From Planotetraspora kaengkrachanensis (GTDB lineage: Bacteria > Actinomycetota > Actinomycetes > Streptosporangiales > Streptosporangiaceae), in assembly GCF_016862895.1 (NCBI RefSeq), contig NZ_BONV01000001.1, positions 62,001 through 126,000 of the forward strand: 64,000 nt of DNA, written 5' to 3'. Shown in pieces: positions 35,811 to 42,106 of this stretch. The first letter of the stretch is position 1; the number at the start of each line of letters is the position of its first letter. The notes under the pieces were generated by a model. That model was not told where the DNA came from and made no database searches. It saw only the letters and a list, made by a program, of their open reading frames with translations. The position numbers were made by a program, and so were the translations under genes.

Positions 35811-37241
35811 TCAGCGGCTGTGGGAGACCGCGGAGCCGATCGTGTGCACCCGCAGCGCGTTGGTCGACCCGGGGTTCCCGGGCGGGGAACCGGCGACGAT
35901 GACGATCTTGTCGCCCTTCTCGCAGTGGCCGAGGGACAGCAGCGACGCCTCGACCTGGCGGACCATGTCGTCGGTGTGGTGCACGAACGGGACCTCGAAG
36001 GTCTCCACGCCCCACGTCAGCGCGAGCTGGCCGCGGACCTGCGGGTTGGAGGTGAACGCCAGCAGCGGGATCGGCGAGCGGTAGCGCGCCAGGCGGCGGG
36101 CGGTCTCGCCGGACATCGTGAAGGCCACGAGCGCCTTGGCTCCCACGATCGCGCCGACCTCGGCCGCGGCGCGCGCGATGGCGCCGCCGGTGGTCTCGGG
36201 CAGGCGGTCGAGGTGGTGGGTGGCGTGCAGCGTGGTGCCCTCGGCCGCGGTGGCGATGCGGGCCATGGTGGCGACCGACTCGATCGGGTAGGTGCCGACC
36301 GAGGTCTCGCCGGAGAGCATGACCGCGTCGGCGCCGTCCATCACGGCGTAGGCGACGTCGGAGGCCTCCGCGCGGGTCGGGCGCGGAGCGTTCATCATCG
36401 AGTCGAGCATCTGGGTCGCCACGATGACCGGGTGCGCCTTCTCGCGGCACAGCTCGATGAGGCGGCGCTGGACGATCGGCACCTGCTCCAGCGGAAGCTC
36501 GACGCCGAGGTCGCCGCGGGCGACCATGATGCCGTCGAACGCGTCGACGATCTCCTCGAGCGCCTCTACCGCCTGCGGCTTCTCGATCTTGGCGAGAAGC
36601 GGCAGGTGCACGCTCTCCTCGTCCATGATGTCGCGGACCACCTGGGCGTCCTCAGCCGTCCGCACGAACGACAGGGCGATCATGTCGAAGCCCGTGCGGA
36701 GCGCCCAGCGCAGGTCCGCCTCGTCCTTCGTGGTGAGCGTGGGCGCGCTGACGGCGACGCCCGGGAGGTTGAGCCCCTTGTTGTCGGAGATCATCCCGCC
36801 GATGACGACGCGCGTGACGACGCGCGGGCCCTCCACCGCGGTCACCTCGAGGTTGAGGCGGCCGTCGTCCACGAGGATCGTGTCACCCGGCTTCACGTCG
36901 CCGGGGAGTCCCTCGTAGGTGGTGGAGACGATGTCGCGGTCCCCCGGGACGTCCTCGGTGGTGACGGTGAACACGTCGCCGAAGCCGAGCCGTACGGGAC
37001 CGGAGGCGAACCGGCCGACGCGGATCTTGGGACCCTGCAGGTCGGCGAGTACGCCTACGGCCTGACCCAGCTCCTCGGCGGCGGCCCTGACCCGGTCCAA
37101 CACCTCCTTGTGCAGCTCATGGCTGCCGTGCGAGAGGTTGAAACGGGCCACGTTCATACCTGCCGCGATGAGCTCGCGCAAACGCTCCGGAGAGGAGGTG
37201 GCGGGCCCAAGCGTGCAGACGATCTTTGCTCGACGACTCAC
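35811..37241 (-). CDS. pyk: Pyruvate kinase
   Basis: Pyruvate kinase turns phosphoenolpyruvate and ADP into pyruvate and ATP at the end of glycolysis. The 476-residue product starts VSRRAKIVCTLGPATSSPE and has NFSHG-type NLSHGSHE, LLAKIEKPQAVE with the active-site Lys, GIMVARGDLGVELP and the K+-site region. The C-terminal domain binds allosteric effectors in the family. I chose the GTG at 37241, which gives the standard family start; the frame stays open 20 codons further up but without conserved sequence. It is convergent with nothing and ends in a UUCG terminator. Confidence 0.97.
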   Translation of the reverse strand: MSRRAKIVCTLGPATSSPERLRELIAAGMNVARFNLSHGSHELHKEVLDRVRAAAEELGQAVGVLADLQGPKIRVGRFASGPVRLGFGDVFTVTTEDVPGDRDIVSTTYEGLPGDVKPGDTILVDDGRLNLEVTAVEGPRVVTRVVIGGMISDNKGLNLPGVAVSAPTLTTKDEADLRWALRTGFDMIALSFVRTAEDAQVVRDIMDEESVHLPLLAKIEKPQAVEALEEIVDAFDGIMVARGDLGVELPLEQVPIVQRRLIELCREKAHPVIVATQMLDSMMNAPRPTRAEASDVAYAVMDGADAVMLSGETSVGTYPIESVATMARIATAAEGTTLHATHHLDRLPETTGGAIARAAAEVGAIVGAKALVAFTMSGETARRLARYRSPIPLLAFTSNPQVRGQLALTWGVETFEVPFVHHTDDMVRQVEASLLSLGHCEKGDKIVIVAGSPPGNPGSTNALRVHTIGSAVSHSR

Positions 37242-37313
37242 GTATCCCACCCTAATTGGTACAGACCACTTGCTAGTGACGACCCACGTACCTGTCGCCA
37301 AATGTTCAGAGAC

Positions 37314-37342
37314 TTCACGTGATCACCCGCGTGCCCTAACGT
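37314..37342 (+). promoter_or_regulatory. Predicted near-leaderless promoter of the 37351 lipoprotein gene
   Basis: TTCACG (37314-37319) and TAACGT (37337-37342) are 17 bases apart. The ATG is at 37351, so the predicted 5' leader is only 0-2 bases. The spacer contains GTGATCAC, a palindrome also found in the repeat array downstream of this gene. Confidence 0.6.
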
Positions 37343-37350
37343 GACCATCC

Positions 37351-38208
37351 ATGGGACGTATCCGGACAACGGGTGCCGTCGCGGCGCTCCTCATGGCGAC
37401 CGCATGCGCAGCTCAGAGTACCGAATCGGCCGCGCCTCCGGCCGGAGTTTCCGTGTCGCTGAACCAGTGGCGCAGCGACGAGACCGCGCACGTGCTCGAG
37501 GTGTCCGTGCGCAACGACACCACGACGCCTGTGCGGTTCCAGGACGTGCAGCTCGTCACCGCGTCGTTCGCGAAGCTCCCGCCCGAGCGGGTGGACACGA
37601 CGCTCGCCCGCACACCCCGCACCGACATCCGGATCCCGTACGGCGAGGCCCGCTGTGATCCGGCCCGGATCCCCGCGGTCAGGCCGGCCACCGTGGTCGC
37701 CCACCTCCAGGTGGGGAACGGGCCGCTGCAGAAGGTCATCTTCTCCGTGCCGCATCCGGACGCGACGCTGACCGGGCTGTTGAACGCCGAGTGCGGCGCC
37801 TTCATCCTCCGCGAGTCCGCCGACGTGACGTTCGGCGACACCTGGACGCGCAAGGGCAAGGTGCTGAGCGGGGTGCTCACGGTCACACGCAAGCACGGCG
37901 ACGAGCCGGTCGCCATCGACGACCTCGGCGGCACCACCCACTTCAACATCAGGCCGGTGTCGGGCGAACGCCACCCGGTCGTGGTGCTGGAACCGGGGAC
38001 GCGGAGCCTCGAGATCCCGGTGGAGGTCACCCCCGCGCGCTGCGATCCGCACGCGTTCGCCGAGGCCAAGAAGGCCTACCTGTTCCCCGTATGGGGCACC
38101 GTGGGCTCCGGGGAGACCTACTGGCTGATCTCCACCCCGTCGACCCAGACGCAGGCCACCATGTTGTCCTACGCCCAAGAAACCTGCGGCCTCCCGAACC
38201 CCGCGTGA
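37351..38208 (+). CDS. Secreted lipoprotein, function unknown
   Basis: The 285-residue protein has a short lipoprotein signal (MGRIRTTGAVAALLMATACA; the lipobox is MATAC). The mature part looks like two beta-rich Ig-like halves, each with a Cys pair candidate (EARCDPARIPAV and NAECGAF; TPARCDPHAF and AQETCGLP). The repeated A(R)CDP motif in both halves suggests an internal duplication. I recognise no enzyme motif. The stop codon TGA is the first three bases after G of the first repeat of the 38205 array, so the array begins inside the gene end. Confidence 0.8.
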   Translation: MGRIRTTGAVAALLMATACAAQSTESAAPPAGVSVSLNQWRSDETAHVLEVSVRNDTTTPVRFQDVQLVTASFAKLPPERVDTTLARTPRTDIRIPYGEARCDPARIPAVRPATVVAHLQVGNGPLQKVIFSVPHPDATLTGLLNAECGAFILRESADVTFGDTWTRKGKVLSGVLTVTRKHGDEPVAIDDLGGTTHFNIRPVSGERHPVVVLEPGTRSLEIPVEVTPARCDPHAFAEAKKAYLFPVWGTVGSGETYWLISTPSTQTQATMLSYAQETCGLPNPA

Positions 38209-38692
38209 TCATGCACAGGTTCGTCGGCGGCCCCGCCGACGTGCCCAAACCCATGTGGTGATCATGCACAGGTTCGAGGAGACACGTGCCCACCTGCGCA
38301 AACCCCGGGGGTGATCATGCACGCGTTCGCAAAAAGGGTCACCGACCTGCGAATTCAAGTTTCGCGATCATGCACAGGTTCGGGGAGTTACTCGTTGAGC
38401 AGGTGCGATCCGGTTCGTGATCATGCACAGGTGCACCCAGTGGGGTGCACAGGCGCACCCCACTGCATGATCACGAACAACAAAGACCGAGGTCGGCGGC
38501 CCGATCTCCGAAAGTGTGCATGATCACCCCCGGGGTTCGACCAGGCCGCACGGCGAGATCCCGAACCCGTGCATGATCACCACATGGGTTTGGGCACGTC
38601 GGCGGCCCCTGCGCCGAGCCTGTGCATGATCACCACATGGGCTGTTGCGCATGTGCATGATCACCACATGGGTTGCGCATGTGCGTGATCAT
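38205..38692. repeat. Phased inverted repeat array (core GTGATCATGCAC)
   Basis: Five forward cores start at 38205, 38258, 38311, 38364 and 38417, exactly 53 bases apart. Six reverse cores start at 38463, 38516, 38569, 38622, 38653 and 38681; the first four are again 53 apart. In the forward half the core extends to GTGATCATGCACAGGTTCG. Spacers in the two halves are related: 38233-38269 is a perfect 37-bp inverted copy of 38569-38605, and 38301-38322 of 38516-38537. The centre (38414-38477) folds with 13-bp outer arms and an 11-bp inner stem (CAGTGGGGTGC at 38439-38449 with GCACCCCACTG at 38455-38465). The array fills the whole 489 bases between two convergent genes. Confidence 0.92.
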
Positions 38693-38697
38693 CCCGA

Positions 38698-40335
38698 TTA
38701 CGGGGTGACGGTGGCGGCTCGGGCGGCGTTGGCGATGCCGTGGCCGAAGAAGCCGTTCTTCTCCCCGGTCCCCTCACACGTCTGGGTGGCCGTGCCGTAC
38801 TTGTAGGCCCGCGGCGTCGGGCAGGACGTCGGGGTCGCCGACGCATACAGGAGCTTCTCCACCTGGCCGGGGTCCATGGACAGCCCGCCCTTGCCGGGCA
38901 CGCCGAACCGGCTGATGATGATCGCCGCGATGCCCGTCACGTGCGGGGCGGCCATCGAGGTCCCCTCGAGGTACTGGTAGTAGGAGCACGAGCCCCCCTG
39001 GCAGTCGCGCACGACGGAGGCGTCGGCCGGGTTGCCCGCGGCGTCGATCTGGTGCCCGGCCCGCAGCACGGCCTCGGGGGCCGCGGCGAGGATCTCCCTG
39101 CGCTCCCCGATCACGGAGGTCCCGCTGTCGAAGACGTCGCCGCCGGGCGCCGCGATGTCGGTCTGCTCGATCCCGTAGTCGGAGTAGGCCGCCTTCTGGC
39201 CGCTCGGGCCCACCGACGAGACCGCGATGACGCCGGGAAGCTCGGTCGGCACGTTGAGGCAGGTGTTGTCGACCGTGCGCTCCTTCTCCGCGCCGAGCGG
39301 ATAGTCGGGGCTCGCCGTGTCCTTGACCGGCTTGCCGAGGTCGGAGCCGCTGTTGCCGATCGCGGTGATCATGGTGACGCCGCGCTGGTGCGCGTAGGCG
39401 GCGGCCCTGCGCATGCCGACGAGGATGCCGCGCTGGGCAAGCTGGTCGGCCCGCGAGTCCTGGGGGTTGGCCGTGCAGTTGAACGTCCACGGGTCGACGT
39501 AGAAGCTCATGTTGACCACGTCGACGCCCACGTCCGCCGCGTACGCCAGGGCGTCCATGGTCGGCTTGAGGAAGAAGTATCCGGAGTCGGTGCCGGCGCG
39601 CAGGTTGACCAGGGACACGTCCGGCGCGACCCCGGCGATGCCGATGCCGTTGATCGGGGAGCCGATGGTGCTGGCCACGTGTGTGCCGTGCCCGTCGTCG
39701 TCGGCGTCGGCGGGGTCCTTGCAGCCCGCCACCTCGCAGGTGCCGTCGAACTTCTTGCCGTTGACGTCGTACGGCTGGTCGGTGACGAAGTTGCGGCTGA
39801 GCTGCCGGTTGAAGTTGGGCGCGATGTCGGGGTGCTTGCCGTCGATCCCGGTGTCGATGACGCCCACCAGCACCTGATGGCTGCCCCGGGCCTTGGCGTA
39901 CGACCCGGTGGGCGTGGCGCCGATCATCCTCATGTCCCACTGGCGGTCGGAGAGCGGTTCGCCGGCGACGGCCTTCGCTCCGCCGGACATCCTCGGCAGG
40001 CGGGCGGGCAGGGGCGCGTCGGCGACGGAGCCGATGGGGAGGTCGGGTGTGACCCCGACGACGGACGAGATCGCTCCCAGCGGTTCGGGAGCGTCCGCGC
40101 GCACGACGAGGTAGCCGAGCCTGTCGTCGCGCGATTCGATCACGCCTCCCGCGGCGGTGACGGCGCGTGCGGCCGCGTCTCGGGCACCGTCGGCGTAGAA
40201 GACCAGGTAGTCGCCGCCCGTGGCGGACGGGGCCGACGTGACCTCCGGCATCGAGACACCGGCGGTGGCCGCGCTCGCGACACCTACCAACGCGATCGAA
40301 AACAGTGCCCTCGCGACACGCCCCCGTGATTTCAA
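38698..40335 (-). CDS. Secreted subtilisin-like serine protease (S8 family)
   Basis: The 545-residue protein has a signal peptide (VARALFSIALVGVASAATAG), a propeptide-like region to about residue 110 and a subtilase domain with the triad Asp161 (VIDTGIDGKHPD), His216 (DGHGTHVAST) and Ser460 (GTSMAAPHVTG). Four or more cysteines (EVAGCKDP, FNCTANPQ, NTCLNV, DCQGGSCSYY) suggest disulfides in the secreted enzyme. I chose the TTG at 40335 because GAGGAGG stands just upstream and the signal peptide begins there; an ATG at 40362 is the alternative. The stop lies 6 bases from the repeat array. Substrate unknown. Confidence 0.9.
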   Translation of the reverse strand: MKSRGRVARALFSIALVGVASAATAGVSMPEVTSAPSATGGDYLVFYADGARDAAARAVTAAGGVIESRDDRLGYLVVRADAPEPLGAISSVVGVTPDLPIGSVADAPLPARLPRMSGGAKAVAGEPLSDRQWDMRMIGATPTGSYAKARGSHQVLVGVIDTGIDGKHPDIAPNFNRQLSRNFVTDQPYDVNGKKFDGTCEVAGCKDPADADDDGHGTHVASTIGSPINGIGIAGVAPDVSLVNLRAGTDSGYFFLKPTMDALAYAADVGVDVVNMSFYVDPWTFNCTANPQDSRADQLAQRGILVGMRRAAAYAHQRGVTMITAIGNSGSDLGKPVKDTASPDYPLGAEKERTVDNTCLNVPTELPGVIAVSSVGPSGQKAAYSDYGIEQTDIAAPGGDVFDSGTSVIGERREILAAAPEAVLRAGHQIDAAGNPADASVVRDCQGGSCSYYQYLEGTSMAAPHVTGIAAIIISRFGVPGKGGLSMDPGQVEKLLYASATPTSCPTPRAYKYGTATQTCEGTGEKNGFFGHGIANAARAATVTP

Positions 40336-40509
40336 CGATCCTCCTCGATCCGGGTACGGCATCCCTCAGCCGGCGGCGGCATCACGCCCTTCAGCGCGCG
40401 ATTCAACCACCATGCAGGGATACTTCCCGTTTTGAACGGCCGTCGCCCCCGCCACCGTCACCTGGCACAGGCTCCGGGACCCTACCCCTCCCCGTCGCAA
40501 GGTCCAGCC

Positions 40510-40520
40510 GTGATCATGCA
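40510..40520 (+). repeat. Isolated copy of the array core
   Basis: GTGATCATGCA matches the first 11 bases of the core of the 38205 array. It lies in the 286-base gap between the subtilase and gltD, showing that the element is not confined to the array. Confidence 0.6.
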
Positions 40521-40576
40521 AAGACTCACCCTGACCGCCGGAATCACGGCGGAACCGGCCGTCACCGGGAGGGTCG

Positions 40577-40610
40577 CCCGTACGTGATCGCCCCCACGAT
40601 CACGCACGGG
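40577..40610 (-). terminator. gltD terminator hairpin
   Basis: Arms CCCGT-plus-CGTGATCG (40577-40590) and CGATCACG-plus-ACGGG (40597-40610) pair over 13 bp with one A-C mismatch and a six-base loop, 11 bases after the gltD stop. Confidence 0.7.
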
Positions 40611-40621
40611 CCGCCCCGGTG

Positions 40622-42106
<1,485 letters not shown>

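Follow-up and report, generated by a model that had tools for sequence, protein, structure and literature searches.

The gap between two convergent genes of Planotetraspora kaengkrachanensis, a soil actinomycete of the NCBI family Streptosporangiaceae, is filled by a regular array of short repeats in two opposed halves, and the question arises what such an array is for. The window analysed here is a stretch of 64,000 nucleotides from this genome, in which the array occupies positions 38205-38692. The initial annotation had left three readings open: a multi-site protein-binding array, a very long hairpin RNA ending both convergent transcripts, or a mobile REP/BIME-like element. Exact spacing, diverged filler and conserved positions make the multi-site protein-binding array the best supported of these. 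The arrays are interpreted here as oriented two-part sites for a putative sequence-specific DNA-binding protein (or pair of proteins), most likely acting as a polar barrier between genes, and a probability of about one half is assigned to this interpretation.

All eleven cores named in the initial annotation were found at their positions (Table 1); compared with GTGATCATGCAC, eight are exact, two carry one mismatch and one carries two. The steps between cores are 53, 53, 53 and 53 bp in the forward half and 53, 53, 53, 31 and 28 bp in the reverse half, which bears out the exact 53-bp spacing claimed for the first four reverse cores. Both inverted copies between the halves (38233-38269 with 38569-38605, and 38301-38322 with 38516-38537) are exact, and the array does fill the space between the convergent genes. 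Core matches with at most two mismatches number 17 in the window, compared with a mean of 4.06 and a maximum of 9 in 100 shuffles. By eye, the N-terminus encoded by the 285-aa ORF on the left resembles a lipoprotein signal.

Table 1. Positions of the array parts, the central hairpin and the flanking genes in the window.
Feature	Position	Strand	Basis
Left flanking ORF, 285 aa, without NCBIfam family match	37351..38208	+	
Core 1, exact; TGA at 38206-38208 is the stop codon of ORF 37351-38208	38205..38216	+	
Second block (consensus YGACCTGC), forward unit 1	38237..38244	+	unit profile, +32 to +39
Core 2, exact	38258..38269	+	
Second block, forward unit 2	38290..38297	+	unit profile
Core 3, exact	38311..38322	+	
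Second block, forward unit 3	38343..38350	+	unit profile
Core 4, one mismatch	38364..38375	+	
Second block, forward unit 4, degenerate	38396..38403	+	unit profile
Core 5, exact, last of the forward half	38417..38428	+	
Hairpin at the array centre, 11-bp stem, 6-nt loop; not general among arrays	38438..38465	.	
Core, one mismatch, innermost of the reverse half	38463..38474	-	
Second block, reverse unit starting at 38527	38488..38495	-	unit profile
Core, exact	38516..38527	-	
Second block, reverse unit starting at 38580, degenerate	38541..38548	-	unit profile
Core, exact	38569..38580	-	
Second block, reverse unit starting at 38633	38594..38601	-	unit profile
Core, exact	38622..38633	-	
Core, exact, 31-bp short step	38653..38664	-	
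Core, two mismatches, outermost, 28-bp step; stop codon of right-hand gene 5 bp away	38681..38692	-	
Right flanking gene, serine protease; mycosin TIGR03921 match of 93.6 bits, below the cut-off of 278.75	38698..40362	-	

The repeat unit of 53 bp consists of GTGATCATGCA-n4-TTCG and a second block, YGACCTGC, set in diverged filler. In a profile of 385 non-redundant units from Planotetraspora and genome G058, columns 0-12 read GTGATCATGCACA, columns 15-18 TTCG and columns 32-39 YGACCTGC; columns 44, 45 and 47 show a weak A/C preference, column 52 is C, and the remainder is nearly free. The view that the spacers are not conserved along a half thus holds for the filler and fails at +32 to +39, where the second block is present. 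Spacers of units that belong to different arrays are only about 50% identical, so it is the length of the unit that is kept and not its letters. Conservation within the unit shows no significant 10.5-bp periodicity, the observed strength being reached by 0.39 of block permutations.

The array is not unique. In the 8.77-Mb genome (G000) GTGATCATGCAC occurs 652 times and its reversed word, used as a control, 0 times; this control is weak, since it contains CTAG, a rare word in many bacteria. On the 606-kb contig C1, where the cores form 17 clusters, GTGATCATGCAC is the most frequent of all 12-mers with 73 copies. A search for tandem cores at 53-bp steps, proposed in the initial annotation, found many arrays in the genome and in its relatives; in named genomes, two cores 53 bp apart occur at at least 80 loci, all of them in Planotetraspora among the matches listed. 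The distribution along the genome is uneven, with 86 relaxed cores on C1, of which 85 lie in the first 500 kb, and 4 on the 395-kb contig C2, the two contigs having 96 and 66 convergent gene pairs, respectively. The core-poor parts comprise C2 (L316-L334, L046, L047) and the part of C1 beyond about 470 kb (L032-L039), and they may be variable parts of the chromosome. Ten C2 proteins were sampled and nine scanned, with none above the NCBIfam cut-off; one of ten proteins from the C1 tail (RecO) was above it, both samples being drawn from the core-poor parts.

The initial annotation had proposed that the cores are phased on the helix, 53 bp being about five turns. In 786 kb of the same genome, nine tiles of which were chosen because they hold cores, there are 83 same-direction steps, of which 66 measure 53 bp and 12 others 52, 54, 105 or 106 bp. 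The named Planotetraspora loci, chosen by a pattern that requires a 53-bp step, give 225 of 274 among the matches listed; overlaps between loci were left in for these step counts and for the inward and outward counts given below. The 53-bp unit is common to genera with different core dialects: it accounts for 41 of 48 steps in G205 (dialect GTGATCATGCAGAAGTTCG, 15 loci), 13 of 17 in G058 (TTCC) and 20 of 26 in G212 (GTGATCTTGCAGAAACTCGCA), and the dialect GTGATCTTGTAGTTTGTCGCA of genus g30 is found at 53 bp in 5 of 15 species, in one of them weakly. In G086 (genus g34), with the tail TTCCC, 50 of 60 steps measure exactly 41 bp, or about four turns. Helical phasing therefore stands in part: spacing is mostly exactly 53 bp in four genera and mostly exactly 41 bp in a fifth, and it is lost in other families, where the core is retained at steps of about 22 to 53 bp, a finding that counts against the preferred reading. 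Constant spacing near whole turns with free filler, as expected of a phased array, is accordingly seen at 53 and 41 bp within the family and not outside it. Loss of spacing with cores remaining, which the initial annotation had named as fatal to the phasing idea, is observed in the other families, and this is half of the refuting evidence that it had asked for.

The distribution among relatives is very patchy. At least 10 relaxed pairs were found in 14 of 345 genomes of the order sample, and 1-4 pairs, mostly chance-like, in 21, the reversed control being 0 everywhere. From other families in the class sample, 5 of 353 genomes reached at least 10 pairs (G371, G373, G432, G491 and G579); these arrays have different tails after the core and looser steps, and their filler is C-rich in G491, G579 and G373. 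No core pairs were found in G388, a congener of G432. The dialect of G373 is GTGATCATGCA[AG]TCCCGCCACCC in tandem at steps of 23 to 52 bp, with filler that is very C-rich and G-poor (L282-L310, even numbers) and 151 relaxed pairs in 3.1 Mb. In G371, core arrays with a 22-bp unit lie head-to-tail at C2:138735-138812 and C9:47885-48071.

Whether the arrays are read as DNA or as RNA is the next point. The second block is reverse-complemented in G086: of its 55 units, 24 agree with GCAGGTCA in 7 or more of 8 letters and none agrees with TGACCTGC, whereas the 385 pooled units of Planotetraspora and G058 include 182 with a forward and 4 with a reversed match. A reversed block is still readable in duplex DNA and hardly in RNA, which argues for recognition of the duplex. 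If the array were instead transcribed in the 3' end of the message and bound by an RNA-binding protein or by Rho, with its leader resembling a Rho utilisation site, the reversal would be hard to explain, as would the locked length without covariation or clear structure and the one third or so of halves that are not co-oriented with the upstream gene. Some features do suit such an RNA element. About two thirds of the halves are co-oriented, the filler of G373 is very C-rich, and AGGTTCG and CGACCTG in the two blocks of the Planotetraspora consensus are partly complementary, without covariation, which is counted against the preferred reading. The 24 nt just before the first core are C-rich on the array strand as well (about 50% C and 20% G), in the 93 halves that follow the gene direction and in the 40 that do not. 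Since this C-rich leader is present whatever the gene direction, and 3' flanks that lack arrays show C and G in equal shares, it belongs to the array; it could be an RNA feature and is weighed against the preferred reading in that sense. Taken together, an RNA element appears quite unlikely.

The proposal of a very long hairpin RNA ending both transcripts was not sustained. Among the 30 strongest column pairs of the 385 units there was no clear Watson-Crick excess (at most 0.47 observed against 0.40 expected), with a small excess of 0.04-0.07 in three of them. Spacers and tails fold hardly better than shuffled sequences: the mean best stem is 4.18 against 4.13 for 500 spacers and 5.03 against 4.72 for 187 tails, and folding energies lie only slightly below those of shuffles. 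A stem of at least 7 bp occurs in 10.7% of the 187 tails (60 nt), so that most copies lack the stable hairpin typical of intrinsic terminators, and the hairpin of the window array is an exception. Hairpins of single units and a long mirror hairpin were both rejected, given the lack of covariation, of a mirror rule and of stem enrichment. It was also considered whether the arrays replace intrinsic terminators; the mean best stem is 7.00 in 11 array-bearing convergent gaps and 8.12 in 81 others, which is suggestive only. Hairpins are thus not clearly scarcer in the convergent gaps that bear arrays, and these figures give no positive indication of replacement. In Rfam, the region 36001-41000 of the window gave one match, outside the array, which scores 22.5 bits where the gathering score is 60.

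The inverted duplication of a tandem array, claimed for this locus, is supported here by the exact copies and is not the rule elsewhere. Only 22 of 405 opposite-half spacer pairs reach 70% identity, in 15 of 54 two-sided arrays (7 of 107 pairs at mirror positions), so the inverted duplication in the window is regarded as a local event. Adjacent spacers are near-copies (at least 70% identity) in 35 of 254 cases, compared with 0.8% between arrays; copying does occur, and the inverted copies of the window are counted among such events.

In one rival explanation the arrays are functionless repeats, selfish or neutral, that owe their exactness to tandem duplication and conversion; the adjacent near-copies, some inverted copying and the variation of copy number between species speak for it. 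The comparison with P. mira, which is genome G202, tells against it. The orthologous gap in P. mira has an array for 12 of 12 testable arrays, and 12 of 13 in the reverse direction; five C1 arrays are without an orthologous flank in the P. mira stretch compared. Copy number, about which the initial annotation had asked, differs at most places between the two genomes; whole 53-bp units account for most of the difference, and some of the short or central steps vary as well. In 30 matched units, 2 of 300 core positions (columns 0-9) differ and the filler differs by 29-34%; all 30 are 53 bp long, in a matching that needed at least 68% spacer identity in fixed register and is thus biased against indels and favours equal length. 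Cores were present in 5 of 5 orthologous gaps found in G203 and in both of the two found in G205. At one orthologous place, a clear case, the dialect differs between congeners, 6 of 7 cores of G205 having GCAG and 7 of 8 of another species GCAC, which suggests a trans-acting reader. A core kept despite about 30% filler divergence, diverged units that keep their length, the dialect shift, the conserved positions and the lack of a RAYT link or of plasmid or phage matches render functionless repeats very unlikely.

A mobile REP/BIME-like element, the third option of the initial annotation, did not hold up either. REP/BIME elements are described, in the part of the source available, as high-copy units found chiefly downstream of coding sequences, where the adjoining genes are unidirectional or convergent, and often set near one another in opposite orientations; REPs are palindromes of 20-40 bp, of which the GTAG type is linked to RAYT transposases (PMC3733652). 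The present arrays resemble them in that they are high in copy, intergenic and enriched downstream of genes, with opposed units close together; they differ in that the unit has no hairpin, has two separate blocks and is locked in length, and in that 12 of 18 carriers lack RAYT. The Y1 transposase (PF01797) is absent from G000, G202, G203, G204, G058, G070, G075, G086, G018, G432, G491 and G579, and has matches in six carriers (G205, G066, G072, G076, G211 and G212); it also has matches in 6 of 9 non-carriers of genus g30 and none in the non-carrier G388. A link between the arrays and RAYT was rejected on these absences, and array positions conserved between species speak against mobility. The window array had no BLAST match to plasmids and phages at an E value of 0.001, and viral contigs contained no core pairs at 53 bp; four short ones (L312-L315) each contain a single tandem core pair at another step, 36 bp.

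The dialects recall another class of repeat. Neisseriaceae DNA uptake sequences are likewise short, fixed, high-copy words with species dialects, according to the sections available of PMC3630211, and the core is a word of this kind, each lineage having one fixed form. A self-recognition signal for natural transformation would nevertheless not need the 53-bp phase or the inward pairing, by our reasoning, and the present arrays, unlike uptake sequences, lie in intergenic gaps: on C1 only three cores fall in called genes, each of them single and with one mismatch. An uptake signal is accordingly most improbable.

What the arrays may do is suggested by where they lie and how they point. Gene calls were made with a simple in-house caller that was altered between analyses, names of C1 flanking genes were given by eye, and duplicates, like halves close to the end of a locus, were removed ahead of the placement counts. 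Of 133 halves, 75 start at a stop codon or within 40 nt after it. In 22 of the 93 co-oriented halves the gene ends on the TGA of the core; the array starts 0-40 nt past the stop in 53 and later in 16, and 2 start elsewhere. The nearest gene on the 5' side of 159 halves (two or more cores) runs with the array in 105 cases and against it in 47, with none in 7; the median distance is 17 nt after the stop if co-oriented and 101 nt if opposed. The initial annotation had asked whether copies are concentrated between convergent genes: the 90 arrays classified by gap type, after 6 edge and 1 mixed arrays had been set aside, comprise 35 convergent, 46 tandem and 9 divergent, against 20, 83 and 58 of the 161 gaps of at least 150 bp on C1, a background that is C1 alone and includes array-bearing gaps. 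Opposite neighbours within 200 bp in Planotetraspora point inward in 51 cases and outward in 1, and no outward pairs were found in G086 (14 pairs), G212 (10), G373 (6) and G058 (4). Starts at gene edges, rarity in divergent gaps and inward polarity are the grounds on which a barrier between neighbouring genes is proposed.

Orientation follows the neighbouring gene only in part, which counts against the preferred reading, and the exceptions to the 3'-end rule look real. One-sided arrays in tandem gaps are co-oriented in 17 cases and not in 10; in four other genomes the corresponding ratios are 12 to 3, 8 to 6, 12 to 6 and 8 to 3; they leave out 3 sites that fall within called genes and 3 that lie at the ends of loci. 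An array at C1 353294-353411, between cobS-like and pepA-like genes, opposes both neighbours. Also to be set against the preferred reading are the one-sided arrays just mentioned, the arrays between divergent genes and the outward pairs in G205 (2 of 13), G432 (2 of 11) and G491 (3 of 12). In G017 and G018 (L230, L242, L247, L248), outward core pairs about 30 bp apart are in the order opposite to that of Planotetraspora, and they too are weighed on that side.

Another rival explanation is an architectural array. In that explanation phased sites load a nucleoid or domain-boundary protein with no direct role in transcript ends, for instance as a topological insulator, in condensin loading or in a replication-related polarity. 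Phase-locked, oriented sites with inward pairs and the uneven spread between C1 and C2 are in keeping with it, and it is considered rather unlikely because a purely architectural site has no need to start at gene ends or to be rare in divergent gaps.

The barrier reading may be put in mechanistic terms as follows. Part A of the site would be GTGATC[AT]TGCA-n4-TTC and part B TGACCTGC. The 53-bp lock would place the proteins of adjacent units on one face of the DNA, where they could form one assembly; fixed length with free letters, units near whole turns, a block that occurs in either orientation and dialects all argue for a protein assembly on duplex DNA. That step is well supported, and the barrier is inferred from placement and polarity. 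Arrays would begin at a gene edge, usually at the stop codon or no more than about 40 bp from it, and be directed into the gap, so that in a gap with arrays at both edges the two halves would face each other. Such a polar barrier would keep whatever leaves a gene out of its neighbour; the simplest candidate is RNA polymerase reading through in either direction, and supercoiling is perhaps another. A wider and more tentative version, which is considered less likely than not, sees polar protein-DNA gates at gene borders along the whole chromosome of some actinomycetes, a two-site machine sealing gene edges against read-through; a putative core reader would be kept across families, the dialects would change fast, and assembly would take place on phase-locked arrays. 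Insulators and the terminator-box arrays at eukaryotic ribosomal DNA offer a comparison. Genes between facing arrays gave no hint of a partner, ORFs of at least 150 aa in 7 of 9 intervals being of differing kinds as judged by eye.

To our knowledge, it is not well settled how actinomycetes separate neighbouring genes. Many natural sites in one genome, together with natural variants of spacing (53 bp, 41 bp, loose) and of the word, make binding, phasing and function directly testable, and the putative reader would, once identified, represent a DNA-binding system of large footprint whose species-specific dialects could make it useful as an orthogonal tool.

Several known systems share single features with the arrays. 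Iterons and multi-site operator or centromere arrays are phased direct repeats that bind proteins, normally at one or a few loci per replicon; the arrays, as putative binding sites, share the phasing and differ in lying at many gene edges, in 17 clusters on one 606-kb contig. The MIRU of mycobacteria are tandem repeats of 46-101 bp whose copy number varies at fixed loci, as given in the available part of PMC3914561. The arrays are likewise tandem repeats of an actinobacterium at fixed loci and in variable number, and differ, as far as that description goes, in that their units share little beyond the two blocks and are often paired inward. The TAACTGA direct repeats of Beggiatoaceae are also many, intergenic and patchily distributed over distant lineages; they are heptamers, mostly just upstream of start codons, and no long locked unit is described in the sections available (PMC4679880). 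The 12-mer gave matches in two papers, and extended words in one of these again; one of the two is on ARG boxes (PMC5839063), in passages that do not display the word itself, and the match was taken as chance, the core being rejected as an ArgR box. The open literature library, searched by core word, extended words and topic, yielded no account of this element, a result limited to that library. The arrays fit no family tested; by distribution alone they could be a REP-like family with a new anatomy, and they look like previously undescribed landing sites for a putative DNA-binding protein.

Two further kinds of core-bearing locus may be recorded. In G419 (L227, L239) a core lies at the ends of a long inverted repeat that is like the hairpin of a bidirectional terminator. 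Small tandem arrays of GTGATCGTGCA occur in other families, at G535:C21:64203-64283 and G623:C714:18602-18680, and are possibly an independent dialect.
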